A DNA stretch of 64,000 nucleotides from assembly GCF_003050785.1 (NCBI RefSeq), contig NZ_QAOH01000001.1, positions 496,001 to 560,000 on the forward strand, read 5' to 3'. The stretch comes from Celeribacter persicus. Its GTDB lineage: Bacteria; Pseudomonadota; Alphaproteobacteria; Rhodobacterales; Rhodobacteraceae. The position numbers were made by a program, and so were the translations under genes. Each line of letters begins with the position of its first letter. The stretch's first letter is position 1. Under the pieces are notes generated by a model. It saw only the letters and a list, made by a program, of their open reading frames with translations, made no database searches and was not told the origin of the DNA. Below are positions 10,400-41,635 of this stretch, piece after piece.

Positions 10400-11575
10400 T
10401 CAATCCGCAGAAGGGTCAAAAACACGCCCGTCGAAAAACCGATTTCGTTCCAGAATCAGATGTCCCGCCTCGGAGGCGACCGGAGTAGGCGTATTCAAAG
10501 CGCCCTCAAGTTTCGAGGAAGCCCCCGGCAAATCGGCGGAAGTCTGCGCCAGCGCCTGCCGGTGGAGGTCGGAGCGGAATACATTATGCGCTACGGTCCG
10601 CGCCTGCGCCCGGTCGAGGCCAGTGCGCGCGGCAAGCTGGGTGCCGATCCATTCCGCCTGCGAGCGCCAGGGAAATGTCGCGGCACCGTTGAAGAACTCA
10701 AGAAATCCATCGACCGACCGGGTTTCACCGGTCGGCGCAATGACGATCTGGCCAGAAAGCGCGCGTTCGAGCATTTCGGAAGGCAGATCGAGATACTCCG
10801 GTCGGCTCAGAAGCTCGGAGGCCAACGTGCGGCTGTCGGGCGAACCGAGCCAGCGGCCCGCACGCCAGACCGCCCGGATAAGCCGCCCCATCAGCGCGCT
10901 TTCTTGTTCGGCCCAGTCGGTGCGCACCGCCAAAACCTTTTCCGGCGCGGCAGACCAGATCGCGGAGGTCGGCAGCAACAACTCTCCCACCCCATTGTCC
11001 ACCGCTTTCGAGCCCCAAGGCTCGCCGACACAAAAGGCGTCGATCTCGCCGGTCGCCAAGGCATCGGCCATCAGCGGCGGGGGCACGGTGCGGATGTCCA
11101 CCGATTGCGGCGCCGGAAGACCCAGCGCGGAGAGCCAGTAATACAGAAGTTCGGCATGCATCGAGAAGGGGAAGGGCACACCGATCCGGAGCCGTCCCTT
11201 CACCGCCGCGATCAGCGCCTTGCCCGCCGCCTGCGCGTCATTGAAGGCGAAGTCATGCCCCTCCTCGCGCAGCCGCGCGGCGAGATCGTTCGACACGCCG
11301 ATGACATTGCCGTTCATCGACAGGACGGAGACAGCCGACAGTTTCGCGCCGGCTCCGCCAAGCCCCAGAGCGGTTGCCACCGGCACCGGGGAGAGCATAT
11401 GCGCCGCCTCCACCTGGCCGAAACTCAGCATATCACGTACCGAGGACCAGGACGGCGCGCGTCTGAGATCGAGCGCAATCCCCTCTTCTGCGGCAAAACC
11501 CATCTCCTGCGCCACGATCAGCGGCGCGGCATCGACCAGCGGGATAAACCCGACCGAGAGCAGCGTGCCCCTCAT
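10400..11575 (-). CDS. nasS: NasS-like nitrate/nitrite sensor
   Basis: 391 residues homologous to the NrtA/NasF binding protein of the same locus (LLSVGFIPLVDAAPLIVAQEMGF; DAFCVGEPWGSKAV) but with no signal peptide, so it stays in the cytoplasm. In the characterised NasS-NasT systems NasS holds NasT inactive until nitrate or nitrite binds. It follows nasT with a 4-base overlap and precedes the nasF leader that carries the predicted NasT target. Confidence 0.9.
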   Translation of the reverse strand: MRGTLLSVGFIPLVDAAPLIVAQEMGFAAEEGIALDLRRAPSWSSVRDMLSFGQVEAAHMLSPVPVATALGLGGAGAKLSAVSVLSMNGNVIGVSNDLAARLREEGHDFAFNDAQAAGKALIAAVKGRLRIGVPFPFSMHAELLYYWLSALGLPAPQSVDIRTVPPPLMADALATGEIDAFCVGEPWGSKAVDNGVGELLLPTSAIWSAAPEKVLAVRTDWAEQESALMGRLIRAVWRAGRWLGSPDSRTLASELLSRPEYLDLPSEMLERALSGQIVIAPTGETRSVDGFLEFFNGAATFPWRSQAEWIGTQLAARTGLDRAQARTVAHNVFRSDLHRQALAQTSADLPGASSKLEGALNTPTPVASEAGHLILERNRFFDGRVFDPSAD

Positions 11576-12156
11576 GCCAGAAGCCCCGCTGCCGTGACCA
11601 GCGCCTGTGCCACATCGGCGACACGCTTGCCCTGATCCATCGCCGCCTTGCGCAGCATGGCATAGGCCTCATCCTCGCCGATCCCCTTGGCGCGCATCAG
11701 CATGCCCTTGGCCCGGTCGATCACCTTGCGCTCTTCCAGCGCCTTCTTGGTCTCGGCAAGTTCCGTGCGCATACGCTGGAACATGCGAAACCGCACGATG
11801 GCGGCGTCCATGATCGGTTTGACGCGTTGCGACTGCAACCCGTCCACGACATAGGCCGACACCCCCGCCTCGATCGCCGCCGTCGAAAGCGCCTCATCGG
11901 TGCTGTCGACGAACATGGCAACGGGACGGTCGAGCGGACCTGAAGCCAAGGCCAGTTCCTCCATCGTGTCGCGCGACGGGTTTTCGATGTCGATCAGCAC
12001 CACGTCCGGGTTGCGCGCCTGAATCTGACGCGCGAGCCCGTTCGGATCGTTGATGACGGAAATGTCGAATTCCCCAGCGGCACGCAGGCTGTCCACGATC
12101 AGCTGCGCGCGGGTGCGGTCGGTTTCGACAACGATGACGGAAAGGGGTGCACTCAT
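11572..12156 (-). CDS. nasT: NasT, ANTAR-domain antiterminator
   Basis: 194 residues: an N-terminal receiver-like domain (about 5-120; D56 in VVLIDIENPS at the phospho-acceptor position), a coiled linker (FQRMRTELAETKKALEERK) and a C-terminal ANTAR RNA-binding domain (about 132-190; KVIDRAKGMLMRAKGIGEDEAYAMLRKAAM). ANTAR domains bind paired hexaloop hairpins and prevent formation of an overlapping terminator. It is first gene of the nasT-nasS pair. No attenuator is evident in its own 124-base upstream gap, which holds only a small hairpin (CAGAT AATG ATCTG). Confidence 0.92.
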   Translation of the reverse strand: MSAPLSVIVVETDRTRAQLIVDSLRAAGEFDISVINDPNGLARQIQARNPDVVLIDIENPSRDTMEELALASGPLDRPVAMFVDSTDEALSTAAIEAGVSAYVVDGLQSQRVKPIMDAAIVRFRMFQRMRTELAETKKALEERKVIDRAKGMLMRAKGIGEDEAYAMLRKAAMDQGKRVADVAQALVTAAGLLA

Positions 12157-12280
12157 GGGGTCAGATCGCGTGAAGCGCGGAGCAAAGTAAACGATTCCTG
12201 CACAAGAAGGTGCTACATGCCTCAGAGACAGATCATTATCTGCCTATTTTTTAAGGCATGACGCTGCATTCGTGGGCAGT

Positions 12281-12778
12281 TCACATTTTGCCAAGACACC
12301 AGTCCCGCATCGCCGTCAGGTTCGGCTCCACGGGTTCGGCAAAGTCTCCGGCATAGACCTCAAACGCTTCGAAATTCTTGGTGTTGATGCCGAGCAGAAC
12401 GGGAATGCCCTCGGAGAGCGCCGCGGCGATGAGATCGCGAAATCCCCGGCCCTCGATCTCCTGCTTGCCGAACTTGTTGATCAGCACAAGCTCCGCCCCG
12501 GCTTCAAGCGCCTTCTCCGCATGATGCACGGCGCGTTCCAACCCGTCCGGATCGAGACGACAGCCTTGTGCCAGTGCGCCGAGGCTCTGGGAAATCGTGA
12601 TCTTCTCACCGGACGGCAGCAGGCGCAGTTCCATCCGGCATTTGATCTGATCGGGGAGTTCGGTGTTGATCTGCACCGCCCCCGCAAGCCGCCGCCCTTC
12701 CGCTTCGAAGCCGTCCGCGAGCTGCGCCAGCAGGCGATCCGTGGCACCTCGGTCTTCCGTCATCACATAGCCGAGCAT
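12281..12778 (-). CDS. DUF2478 family protein, linked to molybdenum genes
   Basis: 165 residues (MLGYVMTEDRGATDRLL...), cytoplasmic, no membrane segment. The family is known to me as DUF2478, often near molybdate or nitrate genes; its function is not established. Here it is divergent from mobA and next to nasT. An upstream ATG at 12811 would add 11 residues, but the ATG at 12778 has a better-placed Shine-Dalgarno (AGAGG, 7 bases before it). Contains ELVLINKFGKQEIEGRGF, which may be a nucleotide-binding-like segment. Confidence 0.7.
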   Translation of the reverse strand: MLGYVMTEDRGATDRLLAQLADGFEAEGRRLAGAVQINTELPDQIKCRMELRLLPSGEKITISQSLGALAQGCRLDPDGLERAVHHAEKALEAGAELVLINKFGKQEIEGRGFRDLIAAALSEGIPVLLGINTKNFEAFEVYAGDFAEPVEPNLTAMRDWCLGKM

Positions 12779-12854
12779 GGCCTGCCTCTTGATTTGCCCT
12801 GCCCCGGACATACAGAATGGATCCCAAGAGCAAAAGCCCTATGGAGCGGACCCC

Positions 12855-13466
12855 ATGCGCAGCTATCCCGGCGTTATCCTTGCAGGCGGCGAAGGCACCC
12901 GCCTGGGCACGGTCGACAAGGCCCTCGTGGAACTTGGCGGGAAGCGGCTGATCGCACGGGTGATCGACCGACTTGCCCCGCAATGCGCCACATTGGCGAT
13001 CAGCGCCAATGGCGATCCGAAACGTTATGCCGAATTCGGCTATCCGATCATTCCCGACGGCGCGGCAGAGATGCAGGGGCCTTTGGCCGGTGTGCTCGCC
13101 GGGCTCGACTGGGCCGCAACGAAGGGCTTCAAGGCAATTGTGACCGTTGCTACTGATACGCCATTCTTTCCGACAAATCTGGTAGAGCGCCTGTCGCAGG
13201 TGGCCCGGCCCGAAGAGTTCGGTATTGCGGTCACAGAGGAGAAAGGCGAAACGCGCTGGCATCCGACCTTCGGACTTTGGCCCGTGAGCCTGCGCGACGA
13301 TCTGCGCGTCGCTCTGGCTCGGCATCAACGACGCATGGTGCAATTCACCGAAAGCAAGGGCGCGGTGCCCGTGGTGTTCGAGGGGCCGGTGCCGGACGCG
13401 CTGTTCTTCAACATCAACACCGCCGAGGATCTGGCACAGGCAGAGGAAATGCTGGCGCGGGTGTAA
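12855..13466 (+). CDS. mobA: Molybdenum cofactor guanylyltransferase
   Basis: 203 residues; transfers GMP from GTP to molybdenum cofactor, forming the (bis-)MGD that NasA needs. The N-terminus has GVILAGGEGTRLGTVDKALVELGGK, the nucleotide-binding loop of MobA (usually GGxSxRMGxDK), and DTPFFPTNLVERL later. The frame opens at 12777, but the ATG at 12855 places the loop near the start as in the family. Divergent from the DUF2478 gene and convergent with tusA; the gap to tusA is filled by a dispersed repeat. Confidence 0.88.
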   Translation: MRSYPGVILAGGEGTRLGTVDKALVELGGKRLIARVIDRLAPQCATLAISANGDPKRYAEFGYPIIPDGAAEMQGPLAGVLAGLDWAATKGFKAIVTVATDTPFFPTNLVERLSQVARPEEFGIAVTEEKGETRWHPTFGLWPVSLRDDLRVALARHQRRMVQFTESKGAVPVVFEGPVPDALFFNINTAEDLAQAEEMLARV

Positions 13467-13468
13467 TC

Positions 13469-13583
13469 TAAAGCGTTTTGCTTTTTATCTGAGACAGGGA
13501 AAAAGCAAAACGCTGAGCAATATATAAGCGTTGTAAGCGTTTCACGCTAAATTTGTGATTCAGATTTAATGCGAAACGCTTTA
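13469..13583. repeat. Dispersed hairpin element, copy 1 (complete, 115 bp)
   Basis: Ends form an imperfect 13-base inverted repeat: TAAAGCGTTTTGC on the left, GCGAAACGCTTTA on the right. Inside, a 15-bp stem AGCGTTTTGCTTTTT / AAAAAGCAAAACGCT (13472-13486 and 13500-13514) encloses loop ATCTGAGACAGGG. It lies between convergent mobA and tusA and supplies the tusA stop codon (tta at 13581-13583). Related copies are at 41654, 56774 and 47748. Confidence 0.85.
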
Positions 13584-13826
13584 GCCTCTGCGGATCAGGT
13601 AGGTCTGGTGCGCACCAAGGTCTTTCATACCGAGATAGCTGTGCCCGGCCTCGTTGCAGTAATGCGGTACGTCGATCACCGCCGCCGGATCGGAAGCGAG
13701 AAGCCGGAGCACCTGTCCCGGCGCCATGGTCAAGAGCCGCTTGCGGGCTTTCAGCACCGGCAAAGGGCAAATCAGCCCGATCGCGTCAAGCTCTTCGTCC
13801 CAGTCTGGCGTGTCATAGGAAATCAT
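13581..13826 (-). CDS. tusA: TusA-like sulfurtransferase
   Basis: 81 residues with the family CPxP motif (DAIGLICPLPVLKARKRL), whose cysteine carries the persulfide. TusA-type proteins pass sulfur for tRNA thiolation, molybdenum cofactor or formate dehydrogenase maturation; near mobA and nasA a molybdenum role is attractive but not shown. The length is typical. Its stop codon lies in the right end of the dispersed repeat. Confidence 0.85.
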   Translation of the reverse strand: MISYDTPDWDEELDAIGLICPLPVLKARKRLLTMAPGQVLRLLASDPAAVIDVPHYCNEAGHSYLGMKDLGAHQTYLIRRG

Positions 13827-13874
13827 GGCCGAGGCTTAAGATGCCCCGGCCATTCTGTCCAGTCTCCCGTTACC

Positions 13875-14828
13875 TCATCCTCGCAGGCCCCGCGTCTGTC
13901 GAAACGGCAGATCGGGTGGAAGATAGGTCTCATCAAGTCGCGCTTTGAGATACTCAGCCGCCTGAACCGGCGGGTAATGCGCAACGCCCGTCCCCGGCAA
14001 GGGAGCAATGATGCTGTCGGGGTTCGGATCGAGATAGAAGGCAGCGAGCGTCCGGGGACGTGTCGGCGGCAACAAGCGATGCGGAACGGAACGGTACTGG
14101 TCATTGGTCCACCGCATCAGGCCGTCACCCACCAACACCAGCAGAGCACCGGGAATTTCAGGCACATCGCGCCATTGGCCGGTACGGGAGCGAATTTGCA
14201 CCCCGCCACTGCCATCGGTAAGCACGAGTGTCAGCCCGCCGTAATCGAATTGCGGCTGATCGCTGGGCGGCGCCATGATCCGCGACCCGACCGGGTAATA
14301 CGACAGGCGCAGCGTCGCCATCGGATCGGTGAAATGCGGCTGAAAGAACCCCTGTGGCAACTCAAGATCGCGCTCGACCCCGCGCATCAGGGCACGGCCG
14401 AGGCCGAGCATCTCCTTGTAATAGTCGCGCATGACATCACGGAACATATCATCCTCGGGCCAGAGGTTCGGCCCCCGAAACGGCTCGCCCGCCTGCACAC
14501 GCGGATCGCTCTCGGACAGGTCGAGGCCCAGGCTGAAACTCTCCTTGATCAGAGGCGTGCCCGACACCCCGCCGAGCAGTTCGACACCGGAGGGTGCCCA
14601 GCCCCGATTGATCGGCGAATGACGGATGTCGAGCGGCGCTTTCTCCGCCTCAGACAGAGCAAAGAACGCCTCCGCAGCACTCAGGACATCACGCAGAAGG
14701 CCGCGCGGGATGCCATGTTCGGACAAAAGAAACACGCCCTCGTCACGACAGGCTTGTCCCATCTGTTGCGCAAAACCCTGTGGGTCCTTGCCCGAGGCCT
14801 GAAGTCGAAAATCCAGTAAAGGTATCAT
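13875..14828 (-). CDS. Isopenicillin-N-synthase-like 2OG-Fe(II) oxygenase with altered HxD motif
   Basis: 317 residues of the IPNS/2OG dioxygenase family: N-terminal DIOX_N region (MIPLLDFRLQ...FLLSEHGIP) and the C-terminal 2OG-FeII domain. Normally the first iron ligands read HxD(Y)G; here the stretch is PQFDYGG, so the histidine is glutamine. The distal histidine is kept (YRSVPHRL), and the 2OG-binding RxS is RTL. The start was set at the ATG before IPLLDF; the frame runs further upstream with non-family sequence. Its substrate is unknown. It may be a weak, divergent or non-enzymatic member. Confidence 0.72.
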   Translation of the reverse strand: MIPLLDFRLQASGKDPQGFAQQMGQACRDEGVFLLSEHGIPRGLLRDVLSAAEAFFALSEAEKAPLDIRHSPINRGWAPSGVELLGGVSGTPLIKESFSLGLDLSESDPRVQAGEPFRGPNLWPEDDMFRDVMRDYYKEMLGLGRALMRGVERDLELPQGFFQPHFTDPMATLRLSYYPVGSRIMAPPSDQPQFDYGGLTLVLTDGSGGVQIRSRTGQWRDVPEIPGALLVLVGDGLMRWTNDQYRSVPHRLLPPTRPRTLAAFYLDPNPDSIIAPLPGTGVAHYPPVQAAEYLKARLDETYLPPDLPFRQTRGLRG

Positions 14829-29669: not shown

Positions 29670-29813
29670 CTTTTCACCACCGGTTCGCCGGTGAACCGGA
29701 ACTGCCCCCGCAACTGTAGACGGCGAGCGCTGATCTGAAAATGCCACTGTGGCTCAAGTGCCATGGGAAGGCGGTCAGGCGCCATGACCCGTCAGTCAGG
29801 AGACCTGCCGACA
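29670..29813 (+). ncRNA. Cobalamin riboswitch
   Basis: The conserved cobalamin-riboswitch blocks appear in order: ACCGG...CCGGTGAACCGGAACTGC, GCCCCCGCAACTGTAGACGG, ATGCCACTG, ATGGGAAGGCGG, CATGACCC, and the 3' block AGTCAGGAGACCTGCCG. Such RNAs bind adenosyl- or methylcobalamin and repress downstream genes. Here it leads a BtuFCD-like transporter operon. Exact helix P1 was not resolved by eye, so the ends are approximate. Confidence 0.9.
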
Positions 29814-29969
29814 CGCAACAGCAACGCGGCCCGGGCGGGGTGTCCGGGGAGGTGTCGAATGATGATTTCCCAAGAGTGGCCGCATGCGGTCACGACAGCG
29901 AGAATGGTTGTATCCGCCGTTTCGGCCGATGCTCCGGTCAGCGATTGGGTCGGCAAATCCCCCTTGTCC

Positions 29970-29991
29970 CCGGTCGCATTACACACCGGAG
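29970..29991 (+). promoter_or_regulatory. Ribosome-binding-site sequestering hairpin of the riboswitch operon
   Basis: CCGGT (29970-29974) pairs with ACCGG (29985-29989); the latter overlaps the GGAG ribosome binding site (29988-29991) of the ATG at 29999. No terminator with a T-run is seen between riboswitch and gene, so control at translation initiation is the better guess. Confidence 0.45.
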
Positions 29992-29998
29992 ACTTCCC

Positions 29999-31012
29999 AT
30001 GTTCCTCAAATTGTTGACCACCGCCGCCGTTGGCGCGGCATCGCTTGCCCTGCCTGCGCTGGCCGAAACATCCTACCCGCTGACGTTGACCAACTGCGGC
30101 GCGGAAACCACCATCGCGGCACAGCCCGAAGGCACCGTGTCTATTGGTCAGGCCGCGACCGAGATCCTCTATTCGCTGGGCTTGGGCGACAAGGTGTTAG
30201 GCACCTCCGTGTGGTTCACCGACGTCCTGCCCGAATATGCCGAGCTCAACGCCGGTATCGAGCGGCTGGCAGACAACGACCCGAGCTTTGAAAGCGTTGT
30301 AGCCAAGCGCCCCGATCTCGTGACCGTTCAGTACGAATGGCATGTCGGCCCGCAGGGCATCGTGGCCACGCGCGAGCAGTTCGGTGACGTGGGCATTCCG
30401 GTCTACACCCTGCCTGCCGATTGCGTTGGCAAAGACAACTCCACTGGCATGGATGGCACTCGTCTTGAGCTTTACAAGATGGACAGCGTCTACAAGGGGA
30501 TCTCCGAACTGGCGCAGATTTTCAATGTCGCTGAACGTGGAGAAACTCTGGTCGCAGATCTGAAAGCCCGTGAAGCGGCGGCCATTGAGCTGGCTGCGGG
30601 TCTTGATCTTCCCGAGGGCACTTCGGCGGTCTTCTGGTTCTCCTCCGCAGAGATGGACATGGACCCCTATGTCGCCGGTCAGGGCGGCGCACCCGCCTAC
30701 ATGATGAACGTGTTAGGTCTTGAGAACGTGGTCCAAAGCAACGAGGAATGGCCCACTGTCAGTTGGGAAACAATCGCCCGCGCCAACCCGACCGTGATCG
30801 TTGCCGCGCGCATGGAGCGCCGCCGCTTCCCCGCCGATGATATCGAGAAAAAGCTGGAGTTCCTGCGGACCGACCCGGTCGCCAGCCAGATGGACGCGGT
30901 CAGGAACAACCGTATCGTTATCCTCGACGCGCACGGAATGGACCCATCCATTCGCAACATCGGCTCCCTTGAAACGCTGGCCGAAGCGTTGACCGGGTTC
31001 GACCTGAAGTGA
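29999..31012 (+). CDS. BtuF-like ABC transporter substrate-binding protein
   Basis: 337 residues, type III periplasmic binding protein of the cobalamin/siderophore/heme group. Signal peptide MFLKLLTTAAVGAASLALPALA, then PLTLTNCGAETTIAAQP and IGQAATEILYSLGLGDKVLG, which is the usual opening of FepB/BtuF-like domains. The ligand is not readable from sequence; the upstream cobalamin riboswitch points to a corrinoid or cobalt chelate. Its stop overlaps the permease start. Confidence 0.82.
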   Translation: MFLKLLTTAAVGAASLALPALAETSYPLTLTNCGAETTIAAQPEGTVSIGQAATEILYSLGLGDKVLGTSVWFTDVLPEYAELNAGIERLADNDPSFESVVAKRPDLVTVQYEWHVGPQGIVATREQFGDVGIPVYTLPADCVGKDNSTGMDGTRLELYKMDSVYKGISELAQIFNVAERGETLVADLKAREAAAIELAAGLDLPEGTSAVFWFSSAEMDMDPYVAGQGGAPAYMMNVLGLENVVQSNEEWPTVSWETIARANPTVIVAARMERRRFPADDIEKKLEFLRTDPVASQMDAVRNNRIVILDAHGMDPSIRNIGSLETLAEALTGFDLK

Positions 31013-32052
31013 GTGACATGACCGCTCTCGCCGCCTCATACCTGCGGCCTGTCACGCTCTGGGGCGTGGCGGGGGCGGTCACCCTGACGCTGGCGATCCT
31101 TGGCGGTGTCGCTATTGGCGAGACACCTTTGCCCTTCGACACCGTGCTGAAAGTGCTTGCCAATCATCTATGGGGCGCGGGCCACGATGTGGATGCCATC
31201 GACGCAGGCATTCTCTGGAGCTACCGCCTGCCGCGGACCCTTGTCGCTGCGGCTTGTGGCGCGGGACTGGCACTTTCCGGCGTCGTCCTGCAATCTCTGG
31301 TACGTAATGCACTTGCCGATCCCTACCTGTTAGGTGTTTCCGCCGGGGCGGGCACCGGAGCCGTCGCCGTCACCGTTCTGGGGCTCGGCGGGGGCATGAT
31401 CGGCATGTCAGCCGGAGCCTTTGCGGGCGCATCGCTGTCCTTTGCCATCGTGGTGCTGCTGGCGCGCGCGGCAGGTGGCGGCTCGGCACAGTTGGTGCTG
31501 GCGGGCATAGCCGGATCTCAGCTCTTCAACGCACTGACCTCCTTCCTGATCACCAAGTCGGCGAATGCCGAGCAGGCGCGTGGCATCATGTATTGGCTGC
31601 TGGGCAATCTGTCCGGCGTGCGCTGGCCGGATGTAACCCTGGCAATCCCAGTCACGTTGAGCGGGCTGGTCGTCTGCGTCTGGTTGGCCCGCGCCATGGA
31701 TGCTTTCGCCTTCGGAGCGGCATCGGCGGCATCGCTTGGCATCGCAGTACGCCGGGTGCAGATTGCGCTGATCGGAGCGACAACGGTGATGACGGCAACG
31801 ATGGTGAGCCTCGTCGGGTCCATCGGCTTTGTCGGGCTGGTGATCCCTCATGCGATGCGCTTTGTCGTCGGAGCGCGCCACGGGCGGTTGGTGCCCGCCT
31901 CGGCGCTGGCGGGAGCCGTATTCCTGATTGTCGCCGATGTGACCTCGCGCATCCTGATCCCCGGTCAGGTCGTACCTATCGGCGTCGTCACCGCTCTCGT
32001 GGGCGCACCGGGATTTGCCGCGATCCTCATCCGCAACCGGAGGCGGGCATGA
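31009..32052 (+). CDS. FecCD/BtuC-type ABC transporter permease
   Basis: 347 residues with about nine to ten membrane segments. FecCD features: WSYRLPRTLVAAACGAGLALSGVVLQSLVRNALADPYLLGVSAGAG and GSIGFVGLVIPHAMRFVVGARHG. GTG at 31009 overlaps the binding-protein stop by 4 bases; ATG at 31018 is possible. Overlaps the ATPase gene by 4 bases. Confidence 0.88.
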   Translation: MSDMTALAASYLRPVTLWGVAGAVTLTLAILGGVAIGETPLPFDTVLKVLANHLWGAGHDVDAIDAGILWSYRLPRTLVAAACGAGLALSGVVLQSLVRNALADPYLLGVSAGAGTGAVAVTVLGLGGGMIGMSAGAFAGASLSFAIVVLLARAAGGGSAQLVLAGIAGSQLFNALTSFLITKSANAEQARGIMYWLLGNLSGVRWPDVTLAIPVTLSGLVVCVWLARAMDAFAFGAASAASLGIAVRRVQIALIGATTVMTATMVSLVGSIGFVGLVIPHAMRFVVGARHGRLVPASALAGAVFLIVADVTSRILIPGQVVPIGVVTALVGAPGFAAILIRNRRRA

Positions 32053-32822
32053 AACTGCATGCACACAATCTCGGCTGGACAACACGCGGGAAAACAATCG
32101 TCGACGACGTCACGCTGGACATCCTGCCGGGCGAGACCTTTGGCCTCGTGGGACCGAACGGCTCCGGAAAATCCACATTGCTGCGCCTTCTGACAGGCCT
32201 CCTCCCGCGTCCCGCAGGCCGGGTTCATCTGGAGGGCGTACCGCTTGAGAGCATGTCTCGTCGCGACATCGCTCAACGCATCGCCTTCGTTGAACAAATG
32301 GCCGATACATCCGAGGCTTTGCGTGTCCGGGATGCCGTAGAGCTGGGCCGAACGCCCTGGCTTTCGGCACTGACGCCGCTCGGCCCCGAGGACAGGCGGA
32401 TCGTGACCGAAGCGCTTGAAGCCACAGGCCTTGCGCATATGGCCGGACACAGTTGGTCCACCCTGTCAGGCGGCGAGCGTCAGCGGGTCCACATCGCCCG
32501 CGCTCTTGCGCAACGGCCTCGCCTGTTGGTACTGGACGAGCCGACCAACCACCTGGACATCCATCACCAGCTTTCTCTGCTGCGCCTCGTCAGCATGCTG
32601 TCCGTCACCGTGGTGATGGCCTTGCACGATCTCAATCAGGCCATGGGCTGCGACCGCGTCGGCGTGATGGAGAACGGTCGCCTTATTGCCTGTGGCCCAC
32701 CCGCAGAAGTGCTGACCCCCGCTCGCATCGCCGCGATCTTCCGCGTGCATGTCACGCCGCTGCGCGACCCCGACGACAACGCCACCCTGTTTCGTTTTCA
32801 TTGCCTGGAGGACCATTCATGA
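32049..32822 (+). CDS. BtuD/FecE-type ABC transporter ATPase
   Basis: 257 residues. Walker A GPNGSGKST, signature LSGGERQRVHIARAL, Walker B LLVLDEPTNHLDI, switch His in ALHDLNQAM: the pattern of FecE/BtuD ATPases. Overlaps the permease at its start and the pseudoazurin gene at its end, 4 bases each. Confidence 0.9.
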   Translation: MKLHAHNLGWTTRGKTIVDDVTLDILPGETFGLVGPNGSGKSTLLRLLTGLLPRPAGRVHLEGVPLESMSRRDIAQRIAFVEQMADTSEALRVRDAVELGRTPWLSALTPLGPEDRRIVTEALEATGLAHMAGHSWSTLSGGERQRVHIARALAQRPRLLVLDEPTNHLDIHHQLSLLRLVSMLSVTVVMALHDLNQAMGCDRVGVMENGRLIACGPPAEVLTPARIAAIFRVHVTPLRDPDDNATLFRFHCLEDHS

Positions 32823-33241
32823 AATCCCTCGCGTCATCTTTGATCGTCGGCCTGCTTGCCACACCGCTGTTTGCCGAAACCTACGAGATCGGCATGTACA
32901 CCCGAAACGACAACGGACCGATGATCTACGAGCCGCAGTTCCTCAGCATCGCGCCGGGCGATACGGTGGTCTTTGTCTCCAAACAGCCGGGTCACAACGC
33001 CGCGACCATTGACGGGATGATCCCTGAGGGCGCCCAGCCGTTCAAAAGCAGGTTGGGAGAGGACTTCACAGTCACCCTGACCGAGCCCGGTCTATACGGC
33101 ATCAAGTGCAGCCCGCATTATGCCATGGGCATGGTCATGCTGATCGAGGTGGGCGAACAGACGGATCGCAGCCTGCCAGAAGGCCTGCCGAACCGCGCGC
33201 GTCAGCGCTTCGAATCCATTCTTGAGGCTGCCGCAAAGTGA
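32819..33241 (+). CDS. Pseudoazurin (type I copper protein)
   Basis: 140 residues. Signal peptide MKSLASSLIVGLLATPLFA; cupredoxin domain with copper ligands His (SKQPGHNAAT), Cys and His (GIKCSPHYAMGM) and Met of the same motif. Pseudoazurins carry single electrons in the periplasm, classically to nitrite or nitrous oxide reductase; neither is in this window. The gene is locked into a transporter operon by 4-base overlaps on both sides, which suggests a task connected with the imported compound. Confidence 0.88.
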   Translation: MKSLASSLIVGLLATPLFAETYEIGMYTRNDNGPMIYEPQFLSIAPGDTVVFVSKQPGHNAATIDGMIPEGAQPFKSRLGEDFTVTLTEPGLYGIKCSPHYAMGMVMLIEVGEQTDRSLPEGLPNRARQRFESILEAAAK

Positions 33242-34008
33242 ATACCAACTACGATCTGACTGAGGACATCCGGAACTACTGGTCGCGCAGGTCCAAGACC
33301 TTTGACTTTGCTTTCGGCCATCGCATTGCCGCAGGCCGGGAGGCCGAGGCCTGGGCGCAGCCGATGCGCGATCATCTGGGCGAACCGCCATGCCGGGTTC
33401 TAGAACTGGCCTGCGGCACAGGCGAGGTGACGCGGCTCGTTCACGATCTCGGCCACGACGTTACAGCCCTCGATTTTTCGGAAGACATGCTGGCGATCGC
33501 GCGAGCCAAACACGCAGGCAAACCACGCCTGCGCTTTCTGATGGCGGATGCCGGGCGGACGATGGAACCGGATGAAAGCTACGACGCCATTCTGTGCCGC
33601 CACCTTGTCTGGACGCTGGTCGAGCCAGAAGCCGCATTCGCCGACTGGTTCCGCATCATGCGTCCGGGTGGGCGATTGCTGATCTTTGACGGCAACTGGG
33701 CAAAGCCATCCCCCTCGGGTCGCTGGGCAGCTCATCTTCTGGCTCTCTGGGACCGGTTATCACCCGATCCCCATTACGACGGCGCAATGAGCGATGCCCA
33801 TGGTACGATCATGGAGCGCCTGCCCTTCGGCAAAGGTCTGACGTTCGATATGCTTGCCCCGATGCTCGCGGATGCCGGTTTCAACATGATCGAACGGCTG
33901 TCACACGACCCTATCGCCAAGGCCCAGCGCCGAACCAACGGGTTGCGCAACGGCTTGCGTACCCGTGTTTATGATCGGTTCATTCTCACGGCACGGAAAC
34001 CCGGGTGA
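33238..34008 (+). CDS. Class I SAM-dependent methyltransferase
   Basis: 256 residues. SAM motif I VLELACGTGEVTRLVHDLG, acidic post-I residue in VTALDFSEDML, motif II-like YDAILCRHLVWTL and the post-motif LRPGG-like region MRPGGRLLIFDGN. Cytoplasmic (no signal). GTG start overlaps the pseudoazurin stop by 4 bases. The substrate is unknown; as last gene of the riboswitch operon it may act on the imported ligand or a related tetrapyrrole, which is only inference. Confidence 0.85.
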   Translation: MNTNYDLTEDIRNYWSRRSKTFDFAFGHRIAAGREAEAWAQPMRDHLGEPPCRVLELACGTGEVTRLVHDLGHDVTALDFSEDMLAIARAKHAGKPRLRFLMADAGRTMEPDESYDAILCRHLVWTLVEPEAAFADWFRIMRPGGRLLIFDGNWAKPSPSGRWAAHLLALWDRLSPDPHYDGAMSDAHGTIMERLPFGKGLTFDMLAPMLADAGFNMIERLSHDPIAKAQRRTNGLRNGLRTRVYDRFILTARKPG

Positions 34009-34358: not shown

Positions 34359-34826
34359 ATGATCACCCAGAAGACCAAATACGCCCTTAAATCCCTCATG
34401 GTGCTGGCCGACGAAAAGGCCGGTGACGGCTCATCTCTGCGCATCGAGGAGATCGCAGAGCGCTCCGGGGCCCCCAAGCGGTTTCTGGAGCACATCCTGC
34501 TCGATCTCAAACGCGCCGGTTTGATTGGCAGTCGACGTGGCCGGAACGGCGGGTACGAACTGATCAAGGATCCGGCACGTGTGTCACTGGCCGAAATCCT
34601 GCGCCTGATCGACGGTCCCATGGCACCTTTGCCCTGCCTGTCCCGCAATGCCTATCAACCCTGCGACGACTGCAAGGATGAAGTGAGCTGCCGGGTGCGT
34701 GCTGTCTTCGGCGGTTTCTACTCCGCCTATATTCTGATGATCGAATCTCTCACGCTCGCCGATCTGATGGAGGATGCGCGTCCGTTGGAGCGATTTGCGC
34801 TGCCCGAAAGTGCCGCCGGAGAATAA
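34359..34826 (+). CDS. Rrf2 family regulator with cysteine cluster
   Basis: 155 residues. N-terminal winged helix (KYALKSLMVLADEK; IEEIAERSGAPKRFLEHILLDLKRAGLIGSRRGRNGGYEL is the family core). Four cysteines at about 93, 102, 105 and 111 (CLSRNAYQPCDDCKDEVSC) are in the place where IscR, NsrR and RirA hold an Fe-S cluster. As the gene lies just upstream of a sulfate importer, a sulfur or Fe-S sensing role is likely. Confidence 0.85.
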   Translation: MITQKTKYALKSLMVLADEKAGDGSSLRIEEIAERSGAPKRFLEHILLDLKRAGLIGSRRGRNGGYELIKDPARVSLAEILRLIDGPMAPLPCLSRNAYQPCDDCKDEVSCRVRAVFGGFYSAYILMIESLTLADLMEDARPLERFALPESAAGE

Positions 34827-34834
34827 TCTTCTAT

Positions 34835-34859
34835 AATCACGATTAAAATAGACGTGATT
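34835..34859 (+). terminator. Inverted repeat after the Rrf2 gene
   Basis: AATCACG and CGTGATT (7 bp) with an 11-base loop, followed by TTTCC. It fits a weak terminator of the Rrf2 gene, or an operator ahead of the sulfate operon. A second repeat ACGAC/GTCGT lies at 34875-34891. Confidence 0.4.
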
Positions 34860-35004
34860 TTTCCTTTGCTAAATACGACTAACTCTGTCGTCATTATCGT
34901 GTCAGGAGGTGCGATGGTCGCACCCGCTTTCGGTTCATTGCCCGGGGCCGCGCCGACCTGCCGCCTGACACAAGGTTCGCCTTGTCCAGCAGAGGAGATT
35001 AAGA

Positions 35005-36201
35005 ATGATACATACCATCCGCATCGGCGCACATGTGCTCGCCCAAGGCCAATTCGCCCGAAATCTCGGCGATGGTCGCATCGAGATCGACACGGGCAAT
35101 CGCAGACTTGCCGGGAAGCCTGTCACGCAGCATGGCTTGCACACCGCCAAGGTTTCACCGCTGCTTCACCTGCTTTCGGCGAACCACTGGCGCAGCGGTC
35201 TGCTTGCCGCAGTGGGGGCAATGACGCTGGCCTTCGGCCCGACCTCTGCGGCGAAGGCAGAAGATACTGTCGAAATCCTGAACGTCTCCTACGATCCGAC
35301 GCGCGAATTCTATCGGCAATATAACGCGCTGTTCAATGAATGGTGGGAAAGCCAGGGCCATGAGCCGGTGACCCTGCGCCAGTCGCATGGCGGCTCGGGC
35401 GGGCAGGCCCGGGCCGTGATCGACGGGCTTGAGGCCACGGTCGTCACCCTCGCGCTCTCCGCCGATATCTCGGCCATCGCAGAGCGCAGCGGTAAAATCC
35501 CCGCAGACTGGCAATTGCGCCTGCCCCACAATTCCTCGCCCTACACATCCACGATTGTTTTTCTGGTCCGGGACGGCAATCCAAAGGGCATCGCCGACTG
35601 GGACGATCTCATCCGCGACGATGTGCAGGTCATCACGCCGAACCCCAAAACCTCCGGCGGGGCACGTTGGAATTTCATGGCGGGCTGGGCTTGGGCTCTG
35701 AATGAATATGGCGGCAACGAAGATCAGGCCCGCGCCTATATGAGTGATCTCTTCAAGAACGTCCCCGTACTCGATACCGGTGCGCGCGGTGCAACCAACA
35801 CCTTTACCCAGCGCGGCATCGGCGATGTGCTTCTGGCCTGGGAGAACGAGGCTTTTCTGGCGTTGGCCGAACAGGGAGAAGACGCCTTCGACATCGTCGT
35901 GCCGTCCGTCTCCATGCTGGCGGAGCCGCCAGTGGCGCTGGTGGACGGCAATATCACCTCGCAGGCGGAGCGCGCCGTCGCCGAAGCCTATCTGGAGCAT
36001 CTTTACAGTCCTGAGGCGCAGGCGCTTGCGCTCAGGAACTTCTACCGGGCTTGGGACACGTCCGCGGCGTCTGATGAAGACATCGCCCGCTTCCCTGAAA
36101 TCACGCGCCTGTCCATCGACGATTTTGGAGGATGGGTCGAGGTGCAGCCCGTCTTTTTCGGGGATGGCGGTGTGTTCGACCAGATTTATGAGGAGCAATA
36201 A
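35005..36201 (+). CDS. Sulfate ABC transporter substrate-binding protein with N-terminal extension
   Basis: 398 residues of the Sbp/CysP family (VEILNVSYDPTREFYRQYNALF; LRQSHGGSGGQARAVIDGL; TPNPKTSGGARW), which binds periplasmic sulfate or thiosulfate. A Sec signal core (LLAAVGAMTLAFGPTSAAKA) is found only at about residues 66-85. The 60 residues before it (from MIHTIRIGAHVLAQG) are unusual for the family. The ATG at 35005 has a good GGAG 6 bases upstream, and I see no good alternative start nearer to the signal. First gene of the operon. Confidence 0.85.
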   Translation: MIHTIRIGAHVLAQGQFARNLGDGRIEIDTGNRRLAGKPVTQHGLHTAKVSPLLHLLSANHWRSGLLAAVGAMTLAFGPTSAAKAEDTVEILNVSYDPTREFYRQYNALFNEWWESQGHEPVTLRQSHGGSGGQARAVIDGLEATVVTLALSADISAIAERSGKIPADWQLRLPHNSSPYTSTIVFLVRDGNPKGIADWDDLIRDDVQVITPNPKTSGGARWNFMAGWAWALNEYGGNEDQARAYMSDLFKNVPVLDTGARGATNTFTQRGIGDVLLAWENEAFLALAEQGEDAFDIVVPSVSMLAEPPVALVDGNITSQAERAVAEAYLEHLYSPEAQALALRNFYRAWDTSAASDEDIARFPEITRLSIDDFGGWVEVQPVFFGDGGVFDQIYEEQ

Positions 36202-36204
36202 ACC

Positions 36205-37044
36205 ATGAGGGCGGGTGTTCTCCGCGCGCCCTCCCCTCTGCCGGGGTTTGGGCTGAGTTTCGGGATCATGATGGCGGTGCTGTCCGTCGTCGTCCTTCTG
36301 CCGATCATGGCGCTCCTCGGGCGGGGTGTGGTGATCGGACCGGCGGAACTTTGGGAGATGGTCGGCACAAAACGCATTCGCGCGGCGCTGTCCCTCTCTT
36401 TTCGCGCCGCTCTGATCGCGTCGGTCTTCAATCTGGTCTTCGGATTGTTGCTGGCATGGGTGCTGGTGCGCTACCGCTTCTGGGGGCGCCGTCTGATCGA
36501 CGCCGCTATTGATCTGCCCTTCGCCCTGCCGACAGCCGTGGCAGGCATTGCTTTGACAGCGCTTTATGCCCCCAACGGCGCTTTCGGAGCTCTGCTCGCG
36601 CCATTCGGAATAAAGGTGGCCTATACCCAGATCGGCATCTGGCTGGCACTTATCTTCATCGGTCTTCCCTTCGTCGTGCGCACTGTGCAGCCCGTCATCG
36701 AGGAACTCGACCGCGAGGTCGAGGAAGCCAGTGCCACGCTGGGCGCAAGTCGCGCATATACGCTGCGCCGCGTGGTTCTGCCAACGCTGACACCCGCACT
36801 CTTGACCGGGTTCGCCCTCGCTCTGGCGCGCTCTGTCGGGGAATACGGCTCGGTGATCTTCATCGCAGGCAACCTGCCGTTCCAAACCGAGATCGCGCCC
36901 CTGCTGATCGTGATCCGGCTTGAGGAATACAATTACGACGCTGCCACCGCGATCGGTCTGGCCATGCTGCTAATCTCTTTCGCCATGCTGCTGGCCATCA
37001 ACATCATTCAAATCTGGAGCAGACGGAGGATCGGAGATGTCTGA
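36205..37044 (+). CDS. cysT: Sulfate ABC transporter permease CysT
   Basis: 279 residues, six membrane segments, CysT/CysU type: LPTAVAGIALTALYAPNG and the EAA-like loop EVEEASATLGASRAYTLRRVVLP. Three bases after the binding-protein gene; overlaps cysW by 8 bases. Confidence 0.9.
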   Translation: MRAGVLRAPSPLPGFGLSFGIMMAVLSVVVLLPIMALLGRGVVIGPAELWEMVGTKRIRAALSLSFRAALIASVFNLVFGLLLAWVLVRYRFWGRRLIDAAIDLPFALPTAVAGIALTALYAPNGAFGALLAPFGIKVAYTQIGIWLALIFIGLPFVVRTVQPVIEELDREVEEASATLGASRAYTLRRVVLPTLTPALLTGFALALARSVGEYGSVIFIAGNLPFQTEIAPLLIVIRLEEYNYDAATAIGLAMLLISFAMLLAINIIQIWSRRRIGDV

Positions 37045-37903
37045 GGTTTCCTCAATCGCCCGCACGCCCTCGGTCACGACCGAGCCACGCCTCATCCGCA
37101 CCCTTTTGATCGGCACGGTTGTGGTGCTGATCTCGGTCTTGTTGTTCGCCCCCCTGATCGCCGTTTTTTCCGAGGCTTTGCGACAAGGCTGGGTCGCCGC
37201 GCTCGAAAGCCTGACCTCGCCCGACGCGCGTGCTGCGATCGGCCTGACCCTCATTATTTCGGCCATTGTCGTACCATTCAACGCGGTCTTCGGTGTCGCC
37301 GCAGCATGGGCGATCACCAAGTTCGATTTTCGGGGCAAGGCGTTTCTGATCACGCTGATCGACCTGCCGTTTTCGGTCTCTCCGGTGGTTGCCGGTCTGG
37401 CACTGGTCCTGCTGTTCGGGGCCAATTCCTGGCTCGGGGCATGGCTGATCGCGCATGATCTGAAGATCGTCTTTGCCTTCCCTAGCATCGTACTCGCCAC
37501 ACTGTTCGTGACCTTCCCCTTCGTGGCCCGCGAATTGATCCCGGTCATGATCGAGCAGGGCCGCGCCGAGGAGGAAGCCGCTCTGACCCTCGGAGCGTCC
37601 GGCTGGCGGATATTCTTTACCGTCACCCTGCCGAACATCCGTTGGGCGTTGCTCTACGGTGTGTTGCTCTGCAATGCGCGGGCCATGGGGGAGTTCGGTG
37701 CCGTGGCCGTGATCTCCGGCAAGATCCGGGGCGAGACAACCACCATGCCGATCATGATCGAGATGCTCTACAACGAATATCTTTCGGTCGCCGCCTTCAC
37801 GCTCGCCGCCGCGCTCGCCCTTCTGGCGCTGGTTACGCTTGTGCTGAAATCCCTGCTCGAATGGCGCTACGCGGATTTGCTCGCCGCCACGCGCCGCCAT
37901 TGA
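37037..37903 (+). CDS. cysW: Sulfate ABC transporter permease CysW
   Basis: 288 residues, the partner permease to CysT. It has [20 protein letters not shown], the loop [23 protein letters not shown] and [22 protein letters not shown], typical of CysW. Confidence 0.9.
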
Positions 37904-37914
37904 AAGGATATTCC

Positions 37915-38634
37915 ATGTTTATCGAAATCGAAGAGATCGCCAAGGAATTCGGGAGCGAGCGTGCGCTTCATCCTGTCTCGCTTTCCATTCCCTCGGGCGC
38001 GCTGATTGCACTTCTCGGGCCCTCCGGGTCCGGCAAGACGACACTCCTGCGCATTCTTGCCGGGCTGGAGTTCCCGACCTCGGGTCGCGTGATGTTCGAC
38101 GCTGTCGATGCGACGGGCCTTAGCGTGCAGGCGCGACGGGCTGGCTTCGTGTTCCAACATTATGCGCTGTTCCGACACATGACCGTGTTCGAGAACATCG
38201 CCTACGGGCTACGCGCGCGCAAACGGCGGGAGCGCCCGAATGAGGCGGAGATCGGTCGGCGTGTGAACCGGCTTCTGGATCTGATCCAGCTTCCCGATAT
38301 CAGTAGCCGCTACCCCAGCCAGCTTTCGGGTGGTCAGCGTCAACGTGTGGCTCTTGCACGTGCACTGGCAATCGAGCCACACATGCTGCTGCTCGACGAA
38401 CCCTTCGGCGCGCTTGACGCGAAAGTGCGCAAGGAGCTGCGGCAAGGGCTGCGCGAAATTCATGACACCACCGGGCTGACGACCGTTTTCGTGACTCATG
38501 ACCAGGAAGAGGCGATGGAACTGGCCGACCTCGTCGTCGTCATGTCGATGGGCCGGATCGAACAGATCGGCAAACCGTCGGACATCCGCACGCATCCCGC
38601 CAGCGAGTTCGTGCGTACGTTTACGGCAGCTTAG
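37915..38634 (+). CDS. cysA: Sulfate ABC transporter ATPase, short form
   Basis: 239 residues. Walker [11 protein letters not shown]-loop [12 protein letters not shown], signature LSGGQRQR, Walker [17 protein letters not shown], switch [14 protein letters not shown]: CysA type. It ends right after the ATPase domain and lacks the C-terminal TOBE-like region of full-length CysA (about 340-360 residues). The stop is clean and the gene looks intact, so I read it as a naturally short form. Confidence 0.88.
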
Positions 38635-40249: not shown

Positions 40250-41635
40250 ATGACAGACTTCTTTATTTCGCGCCGTCATTTCCTTGCAGGTTCCGGCGCG
40301 ATGGTCATGATGCCGGGCACAACCTTCGCGGCGCCCCCGGAGGTTTTGGTCGCAAAGATCGCACAAGCCCAGATCGCGCCCGACAGCTATCCCCCGACAA
40401 GCATCTATAGCTATAATGGCCAATTCCCCGGCCCTATGATCCGCGCCAAACAAGGCGAACGGATCACCCGGGAATTGGTCAACGACCTGCCTGTGCCGAC
40501 CTCGATCCACTGGCACGGCATCCGCATCGACAATACCATGGACGGGGTTGCAGGGCTCACGCAGGAGGCCGTACCTCCGGGAGAGCGGTTCAGCTATGAT
40601 TTCGTGGTGCCGGACGCGGGCACCTATTGGTATCACGCGCATACGAACTCGATGGAACAAGTGGCGCGCGGCCTCTACGGTCCGTTGATCGTCGAAGAAA
40701 CCGAGGCACCGGATGTCGATCGTGATGAAGTGCTGATGCTTGGTGACTGGCGCCTCGATCCCGAAACCGCACAGATCGACCCGAACTTCGATCACCCGAT
40801 GGATCGCAGCCACGCCGGGCGCTATGGCAATCTGATCGGCACCAACGGGCGCTACGGCTATCGTCTGGTGGCGCGCCAAGGCGAACGGCTGCGCCTGCGT
40901 CTGATCAACGCGGCAAATGCGCGAATTTTCAGGCTCAGGCTCAAAGGGTTGATCGGGTGGACCGTGGCACTCGATGGCATGCCGCTTGAGACACCAGTGC
41001 CGGTTGAAGGCGAAATCGTTCTCCTCCCGGCGCAGCGTGCCGATCTGATTGTCGATGTAACAGCCGATGACGGGGGCGAAACCATGATCCTGCGGTTCGA
41101 TGACGATGGGCAATGGCGCGAACAGGTCGGGTTCGATCTCTCCGGTTCCATCGCTCTGCGCAGCACACCTCCCGCACCTTTGTCGCCCAATCCAGGCATG
41201 TCTCCGATTGATCTTGAGCGTGCCACCCGACTTGAGATGCGCATGGAGGGCGGTGCCATGGGCAATATGCCGATGGGCCGGATGAACGGGCAGATGATGA
41301 CCTTTCGCGAGATGGTGGCATCCGGCATGTACTGGACGCTCGCGGGTGTTGCCGGAATGGCGGATAACCCGTTCGCGCGTCTTGCGCGGAGGGAGCATGT
41401 CCGATTGAAACTCATCAACGACACGGCGTTCCCGCACGCCATGCACTTGCATGGACATCATTTCCGCGAAATCACGGAAGGACAACAAGGTCCGATGCGT
41501 GACACGATTCTGAGCCTGCCGGGGGACACCATCGAGATCGCGTTTGTCGCGGACAATCCAGGGAAATGGCTATTTCATTGTCACATGCTCGGTCATGCCG
41601 CATCCGGAATGACAACCTGGATCGAGGTTCTCTAA
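40250..41635 (+). CDS. Tat-exported multicopper oxidase
   Basis: 461 residues. Twin-arginine signal (ISRRHFLAGSGAM). All four copper-ligand clusters are present: HWHG (H87, H89), YHAHT (H129, H131), HAMHLHGHH and the C-terminal HCHMLGH with the type 1 Cys. A Met-rich segment (MEGGAMGNMPMGRMNGQMM) before the last cupredoxin domain is like the Met-rich copper regions of CueO/CopA. Probably oxidises Cu(I) in the periplasm as part of copper defence. Confidence 0.9.
   Translation: MTDFFISRRHFLAGSGAMVMMPGTTFAAPPEVLVAKIAQAQIAPDSYPPTSIYSYNGQFPGPMIRAKQGERITRELVNDLPVPTSIHWHGIRIDNTMDGVAGLTQEAVPPGERFSYDFVVPDAGTYWYHAHTNSMEQVARGLYGPLIVEETEAPDVDRDEVLMLGDWRLDPETAQIDPNFDHPMDRSHAGRYGNLIGTNGRYGYRLVARQGERLRLRLINAANARIFRLRLKGLIGWTVALDGMPLETPVPVEGEIVLLPAQRADLIVDVTADDGGETMILRFDDDGQWREQVGFDLSGSIALRSTPPAPLSPNPGMSPIDLERATRLEMRMEGGAMGNMPMGRMNGQMMTFREMVASGMYWTLAGVAGMADNPFARLARREHVRLKLINDTAFPHAMHLHGHHFREITEGQQGPMRDTILSLPGDTIEIAFVADNPGKWLFHCHMLGHAASGMTTWIEVL

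Follow-up and report, generated by a model that had tools for sequence, protein, structure and literature searches.

A probable CbtJKL-type cobalt-import operon of Celeribacter persicus carrying a pseudoazurin and a methyltransferase that recurs beside metal-uptake genes

We analysed a 64,000-nucleotide stretch of the Celeribacter persicus genome (the window; contig NZ_QAOH01000001.1, positions 496,001 to 560,000), in which genes for a periplasmic binding protein, a permease, an ATPase, a pseudoazurin and a class I S-adenosylmethionine (SAM)-dependent methyltransferase (MT) lie behind a cobalamin riboswitch sequence and a short leader open reading frame (ORF) (Table 1). The first-pass annotation of this DNA had described the five genes as chained by 4-base overlaps, and the ORFs, the Pfam assignments and the junction sequences bear this out at all four junctions (GTGA at 31009-31012, ATGA at 32049-32052, ATGA at 32819-32822 and GTGA at 33238-33241). 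The MT alone was then used to retrieve loci from genome contigs, and the best 80 of 153 confirmed loci were kept as the MT-sampled set. The window overlaps are not a matter of chance, because the same overlaps recur across these 80 related loci: the 4-base overlap of cbtK and cbtL was found in 66 of the 70 loci where it could be measured, that of cbtJ and cbtK in 42 of 72, that of cbtL and the pseudoazurin gene in 13 of 27, and that of the MT gene and the gene before it in 23 of 70. The complete order of riboswitch, cbtJKL, pseudoazurin and MT is present in 28 of the 80 loci (27 by script and L042 by inspection), and the order riboswitch-cbtJKL-MT in 43. In line with the first-pass annotation, transporter, pseudoazurin and MT form one recurrent operon type, which is normally led by a riboswitch.

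Table 1. Features of the operon in the window (positions counted from the first nucleotide of the window)
Feature	Position	Strand	Basis and remarks
Cobalamin riboswitch aptamer, 5'-truncated	29687..29803	+	RF00174; core and B12 box kept
Leader ORF, 52 aa	29859..30017	+	Shine-Dalgarno GGGGAGG; 19-nt overlap with cbtJ start
CbtJ-like periplasmic binding protein	29999..31012	+	Pfam Peripla_BP_2; signal peptide by eye; 57% identity to S. meliloti CbtJ (locus L021)
CbtK-like permease	31009..32052	+	Pfam FecCD; GTG start, possible ATG at 31018; 67% identity to S. meliloti CbtK
CbtL-like ATPase	32049..32822	+	Pfam ABC_tran; 52% identity to S. meliloti CbtL
Pseudoazurin	32819..33241	+	Pfam Copper-bind; TIGR02375 120.7 bits (cut-off 109.85)
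Importer-linked class I SAM-dependent MT	33238..34008	+	GTG start; motif CRHLVWTL at 120-127; PF08241

The three transporter proteins match CbtJ, CbtK and CbtL of Sinorhizobium meliloti at the identities given in Table 1 and are encoded in the same order. On pSymB of S. meliloti 1021, a full riboswitch is followed by cbtJ, cbtK, cbtL and, after a 3-nt gap, a gene (pSymB 69552-70331) for a 259-aa MT that is 64% identical to the window MT. The two loci share the J-K-L order, a cobalamin riboswitch sequence in front (of which the window keeps core and B12 box) and the same MT behind cbtL; they differ in that the window has a pseudoazurin gene between cbtL and the MT gene, a riboswitch truncated at its 5' end and a leader ORF that overlaps cbtJ, whereas the leader ORF of S. 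meliloti ends before cbtJ. Excerpts of published work describe CbtJKL as first thought to be a cobalamin transporter and later shown to import Co(II) (PMC7689651), with knock-outs that need added CoCl2 for growth (PMC7689651; PMC12239276). Judging from sequence and gene order, the window operon probably encodes a cobalt importer, not a vitamin B12 importer. The first-pass annotation had called the transporter BtuFCD-like while placing the last two genes outside B12 uptake. That the system does not serve B12 uptake is probably right, since the transporter matches a Co(II) importer; the BtuFCD-like label is weakened both by the S. meliloti relative and by a separate BtuBFCD-CbiZ-like operon of the same genome. 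Its suggestion of a metallophore replacing the demand for B12 gives way to one in which that demand would be met by cobalt import.

The separate operon stands behind a full-length riboswitch match of its own. Its TonB receptor is matched best by TonB-B12 and its permease by BtuC; a binding protein, an ATPase and a CbiZ-type hydrolase are encoded with them. C. persicus also has operons for CbiM-CobW-CobN and for ribonucleotide reductase, each again behind a full-length riboswitch match. With these three systems encoded elsewhere, cobalt supply is the natural role left for the window operon. Other identities were considered for the transporter. The window permease scored higher with the F420-0 permease family of NCBIfam (273 bits) than with BtuC, and an F420-0 importer was rejected as the cut-offs were not reached. 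EitA was the best NCBIfam match of the binding protein (294 bits, cut-off 640) and EitC the second-best match of the ATPase (277 bits, cut-off 485), so that the siderophore importer EitABC likewise fell short. Conservation of 95% or more over 100 CbtJ rows is seen for R274-R276, R155, R191, R319, C33, C142 and several acidic residues, but for no histidine. This pattern suggests that CbtJ binds a negatively charged chelate, which it would fit better than a histidine-type site for bare metal.

The cobalamin riboswitch named in the first-pass annotation was recovered in part. The RF00174 match scored 69.1 bits, well over the gathering score of 31.5. It covers only positions 51-166 of the 189 in the model, also when 401 bases were searched with permissive filters; positions 1-50 are unmatched and the last 23 lie outside the local match as well, so that the aptamer, which would include the 5' strand of P1 and the GGGAA core, is not complete. 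Twelve other riboswitches were aligned, among them that of a same-genus genome (L155), and all have a 5' segment that closes with GGGAA; in the window this segment is not recognisable. The L155 riboswitch matches at full length (positions 1-189, 111.4 bits), as do the three other riboswitches of the C. persicus genome. R1, an RNA model of our own, was applied to the 80 MT-sampled loci and the window, and also to 24 loci and to 5; it scored 95.5 bits at 29679-29828 in the window. Of the 74 MT-sampled loci with cbtJ, 72 have an R1 match upstream (L042 recognised by inspection, the other 71 by script); L045 and L111 do not. The folded window leader was only mildly more stable than its shuffles (z -1.8). 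As far as can be read from the alignment, the window riboswitch is 5'-truncated or strongly diverged. Further cobalamin riboswitches were observed directly behind the MT gene in L100 and L114 (both 10914-14584) and in L065 (10875-13479), and in L100 and L065 the first of them leads metE, the gene for B12-independent methionine synthase.

Of 90 distinct leaders, 87 have an ATG with a Shine-Dalgarno sequence between riboswitch and cbtJ, 58-71 nt past the point where the B12 box begins, and six neighbouring intervals gave such a pair in 0-3 of the 90 leaders each. These leaders were drawn from 113 CbtJ rows after exclusion of rows without the B12-box pattern, short leaders and identical ones. In 28 of the 87, the leader ORF reaches past the start of cbtJ. 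Its frame relative to cbtJ is identical in 21 of 29 Rhodobacterales-type leaders. Since many of these have their distance in common and no frame preference shows in the remaining 58, coding selection on the leader peptide is not established, and the peptide itself may not matter. The riboswitch seems to act on initiation of the leader ORF and, via coupling or polarity, on cbtJ. A translated leader ORF under a riboswitch is reported, in an excerpt of PMC11260477, for Mycobacterium tuberculosis ppe2; as there, the leader ORF described here lies between the aptamer and the target gene, whereas phylum, target and aptamer differ and leader translation is here only predicted.

The MT is a class I enzyme by fold and score, with 75.7 bits for Methyltransf_11 (cut-off 21.2) and an AlphaFold2 model at a pLDDT of 91.9. 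A Foldseek search with this model placed small-molecule methyltransferases nearest, with the top 50 at TM scores of about 0.5-0.67 by query length, and found no close functional analogue. The corrinoid protein-associated methyltransferase CpaM was rejected, its score of 66 bits lying below the NCBIfam cut-off of 180. In the MT-sampled set, 74 of the 80 loci carry cbtJ (73 the full cbtJKL and 1 cbtJ alone); the other six comprise three with a riboswitch-led NikA-like importer, one with znuABC-cobW, one with an AztD-ZinT gene and one with none of these. A metal-uptake gene hence adjoins the MT in 79 of 80 loci. L061 has the same chloride-channel neighbour as L050, one of the NikA-type loci, but neither riboswitch nor importer in front of the MT. 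Besides the window, a search of whole genomes by the MT alone gave 19 matches with E values under about 1e-35, of which the second G976 copy is the same DNA as L113 and was not counted. An importer gene lies within 425 bp in 17 of the remaining 18, the exception being the second copy of G058. In the control, none of 12 generic methyltransferase loci (L009-L020) had an importer gene within about 1.5 kb. Of two matches scoring below this limit, G045 (L146) has a cbt importer with a divergent MT and G064 (L167) has no importer.

The loci with other transporters deserve a closer description. In L050, L052 and L054, a full cobalamin riboswitch is followed by genes for a 2Fe-2S protein, a NikA-like SBP_bac_5 protein and two permeases and then by the MT gene, and the stretch from riboswitch to MT holds no ATPase gene; families were tested in L050 and assigned to L052 and L054 via tblastn at 85-96% identity. 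This riboswitch-led system (L050 5671-9941) is a candidate second cobalt importer. Two zinc-uptake loci were observed, L098 (3988-10804) and L095 (7958-10771). In L098, the order znuC-znuB-znuA-cobW is followed by a 94-aa ORF that overlaps cobW by 4 bases, and the MT gene starts right after the stop of this ORF; the locus also holds an AztD-ZinT fusion and, in a small ORF, the motif CHVPGCPP. In L095, the MT gene is divergent to an AztD-ZinT fusion. Zur-box arms were searched in both loci with no match. The sequence GTAATAACATTAC is present upstream in both, which is a weak sign, as the looser pattern GTAAT...ATTAC has 23 matches over the 80 loci. An excerpt of PMC5387054 describes a seven-gene operon of Paracoccus denitrificans that is regulated by zinc and includes a COG0523 gene as well as an importer of the Ni/dipeptide type; this is a parallel worth comparing. 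In the open-licence literature we found no paper on the MT or the pseudoazurin in this setting, and the combination of cbtJ and methyltransferase returned only a CbtJKL review. CbtJKL is already known; the MT family that travels with metal importers is barely noticed.

A tree of the MT was built from 113 rows, leaving out L028 and L155, which are partial, and L139 and L140, which come from the same genomes as L055 and L056. In it, the enzymes that adjoin cbtJKL fall largely apart from a sister subfamily found next to FhuP-like importers. Exceptions are the MTs of L170 and L171, which have FhuP-like neighbours and branch with the cbt side, and L174 of Paracoccus ferrooxidans, where an MT from the other side sits inside a complete cbt-pseudoazurin operon. 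The NikA-linked MTs are nested in a cbt clade (support 100/98), and the two zinc-linked MTs are sisters inside another cbt clade (support 100/99), which argues that the transporter type changed while the MT stayed. No B12 riboswitch was found at 11 loci where the MT adjoins a FhuP-like importer. The MT of the second subfamily in S. meliloti (L186) probably adjoins SMb21429-SMb21432, judging from gene order, and excerpts of two transcriptome papers (PMC2848241, PMC2912261) group these four genes with iron uptake. Because the identity of L186 rests on gene order, the link of the second MT subfamily to iron is tentative.

The pseudoazurin keeps H59, C97, H100 and M105, which we take to be the type 1 copper ligands and whose conservation reaches 95% or more over 41 rows. 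It is the only pseudoazurin match of the C. persicus genome. No NirK over the family cut-off was found in this genome, so that the usual pseudoazurin partner was not detected and NirK was set aside in this role. The protein resembles other TIGR02375 pseudoazurins in score and ligands; it differs from them in that its gene overlaps a metal importer operon in a genome with no such NirK. A multicopper-type protein with weak NirK-family matches is encoded at about 40400-41632 of the window, some 7 kb beyond the pseudoazurin gene in the downstream direction. Among the 74 MT-sampled loci that carry cbtJ, the pseudoazurin gene stands ahead of the MT gene in 30 and not in 44 (in L087 it is behind).

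We propose a high-affinity cobalt importer of the CbtJKL type, encoded together with two accessory proteins, one of which, the MT, methylates the organic ligand of the metal after uptake; to this interpretation we give an even chance. In the relatives, the leader ORF would be released for translation when cobalamin is low, and cbtJ along with it through coupling. CbtJ would then bind cobalt, probably complexed with an anionic organic ligand, and CbtKL would import the complex. In the cytoplasm, the MT would methylate the low-molecular-weight ligand, which would weaken chelation and let cobalt reach the CobN/CobW chelatase system. The pseudoazurin, as a periplasmic copper protein, may keep copper off CbtJ or may act in redox or metal transfer, which is a guess. 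Methylation of an imported ligand is favoured by the Foldseek neighbours, which are small-molecule methyltransferases, together with the conservation of CbtJ. The MT would follow a metal-ligand problem and not one transporter, and would for this reason be found with CbtJKL and also with NikA-like, Znu/AztD-ZinT and FhuP-like systems. More broadly, the MT family may unload imported metals in general, methylating a ligand that arrives with cobalt, zinc or iron and so freeing the metal in the cytoplasm; one enzyme would then serve these unrelated importers and would have stayed on as transporters were exchanged. We regard this wider extension as possible and rather doubtful.

Several points weigh against the proposal. 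The MT is accessory when loci are sampled by the transporter. This set, retrieved with the binding protein, has 26 loci: 295 same-family genomes gave 20 (12 close, 8 more distant), and 385 genomes drawn across the class added six (L162 and L190-L194). A riboswitch was found in 18 of the 26, counting the truncated one, a pseudoazurin in 6 and the MT in 5, of which one is divergent (L146); L138, read up to cbtK only, and L145, a 7-kb contig with cbtJ alone, were both scored as lacking pseudoazurin and MT. The MT is also shortened in same-genus G007 (matching residues 1-165) and in Cereibacter sphaeroides EBL0706 (1-96), and in G225 it is a 55-residue remnant (residues 201-255). L168 (51% identity to the second subfamily) and, as a weaker and partial case, L167 (G064) are MT-like matches with no importer nearby. 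Ligand methylation by the MT is itself putative. Co(II) could sit on Asp, Glu or Cys of CbtJ without any chelate, and the rescue of S. meliloti by CoCl2 does not reveal the form that CbtJ binds. B12 control is doubtful in C. persicus, where it may be lost or altered, as the 5' third of the riboswitch is missing. Finally, the BtuFCD cut-offs of NCBIfam decide nothing, because both importers of this genome fail them: the window proteins score 22 of 234 bits for BtuF, about 211-212 of 334 for BtuC and 130 of 281 for BtuD, and the BtuBFCD-CbiZ-like operon scores 210 of 334 for BtuC and 129 of 281 for BtuD, with BtuF not listed.

Absence of the last two genes from most relatives of the transporter had been treated in the first-pass annotation as grounds for abandoning a joint system, and the transporter-sampled counts go part of the way there. 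Judging from gene content, the importer does not need the MT, yet the MT nearly always accompanies metal uptake, and this asymmetry between importers without MT and MTs with importers fits an accessory processing enzyme. Could the MT and the pseudoazurin instead be loosely linked passengers of a mobile operon? Their low frequency by transporter sampling, the repeated decay of the MT and the many copies on plasmid and megaplasmid records would agree with this. However, a metal-uptake gene is found in nearly every locus in the reverse sampling, the MT was kept while the transporter type changed, and tight junctions are common, so that we consider passengers unlikely. As a separate observation, L055/L139 (L139 6246-8495) carries riboswitch, cbtJ, pseudoazurin and MT genes with no permease or ATPase gene, and a complete cbtJKL adjoins in the opposite direction.

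The MT could also help to make a secreted or intracellular metallophore rather than process an imported one. Its presence at cobalt, zinc and probably iron uptake loci and the small-molecule methyltransferases among its closest solved structures would be compatible with such a role. However, the annotated neighbourhoods show no recurrent gene for biosynthesis or export, and neighbours of this type are single cases (a DMT transporter at the Rhodobacter capsulatus locus, a PACE efflux gene in L170, and an MFS transporter with aminotransferases in L171/L176), and a single tailoring enzyme makes no metallophore. We consider this role quite unlikely. A redox step between pseudoazurin and transporter, in which pseudoazurin would hand on electrons in the periplasm and so turn Co(III) chelates into labile Co(II) ahead of import, would agree with the kept copper ligands and with the only pseudoazurin match of a genome with no NirK over the cut-off lying in this operon; it is nevertheless improbable, given that 44 of the 74 cbtJ-carrying loci have no pseudoazurin ahead of the MT, that CbtJKL of S. 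meliloti works regardless of its absence from that locus and that the operon has no reductase gene. A further reading is a BtuFCD importer of cobalamin or cobinamide, with the other two genes as unrelated passengers. The window operon has in common with BtuFCD the sequence family, the Peripla_BP_2/FecCD/ABC_tran architecture and, though truncated here, a cobalamin riboswitch of the kind that gives B12-type regulation, with BtuC among the better permease matches (212 bits). This reading is very improbable, because the nearest studied relative, in S. meliloti, moves Co(II) (excerpt of PMC7689651) and the TonB-B12/BtuC/CbiZ-type operon with its own riboswitch lies elsewhere in the genome.

Downstream of the operon, genes of a sulfate-type ABC importer, named by eye from their ORFs, follow an Rrf2-like regulator at 34359-38634 of the window.

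The acquisition and release of cobalt for B12 synthesis are poorly known, and CbtJKL is among the few defined cobalt importers. The conserved leader ORF would change how the B12 control of this operon is read. An MT that occurs with importers of differing ancestry, for cobalt, zinc and probably iron, points to a common, unnamed step of metal uptake. Metals are known to be released by reduction, by ligand hydrolysis or by ligand exchange; if the wider proposal is true, ligand methylation would be a further route of metal release.

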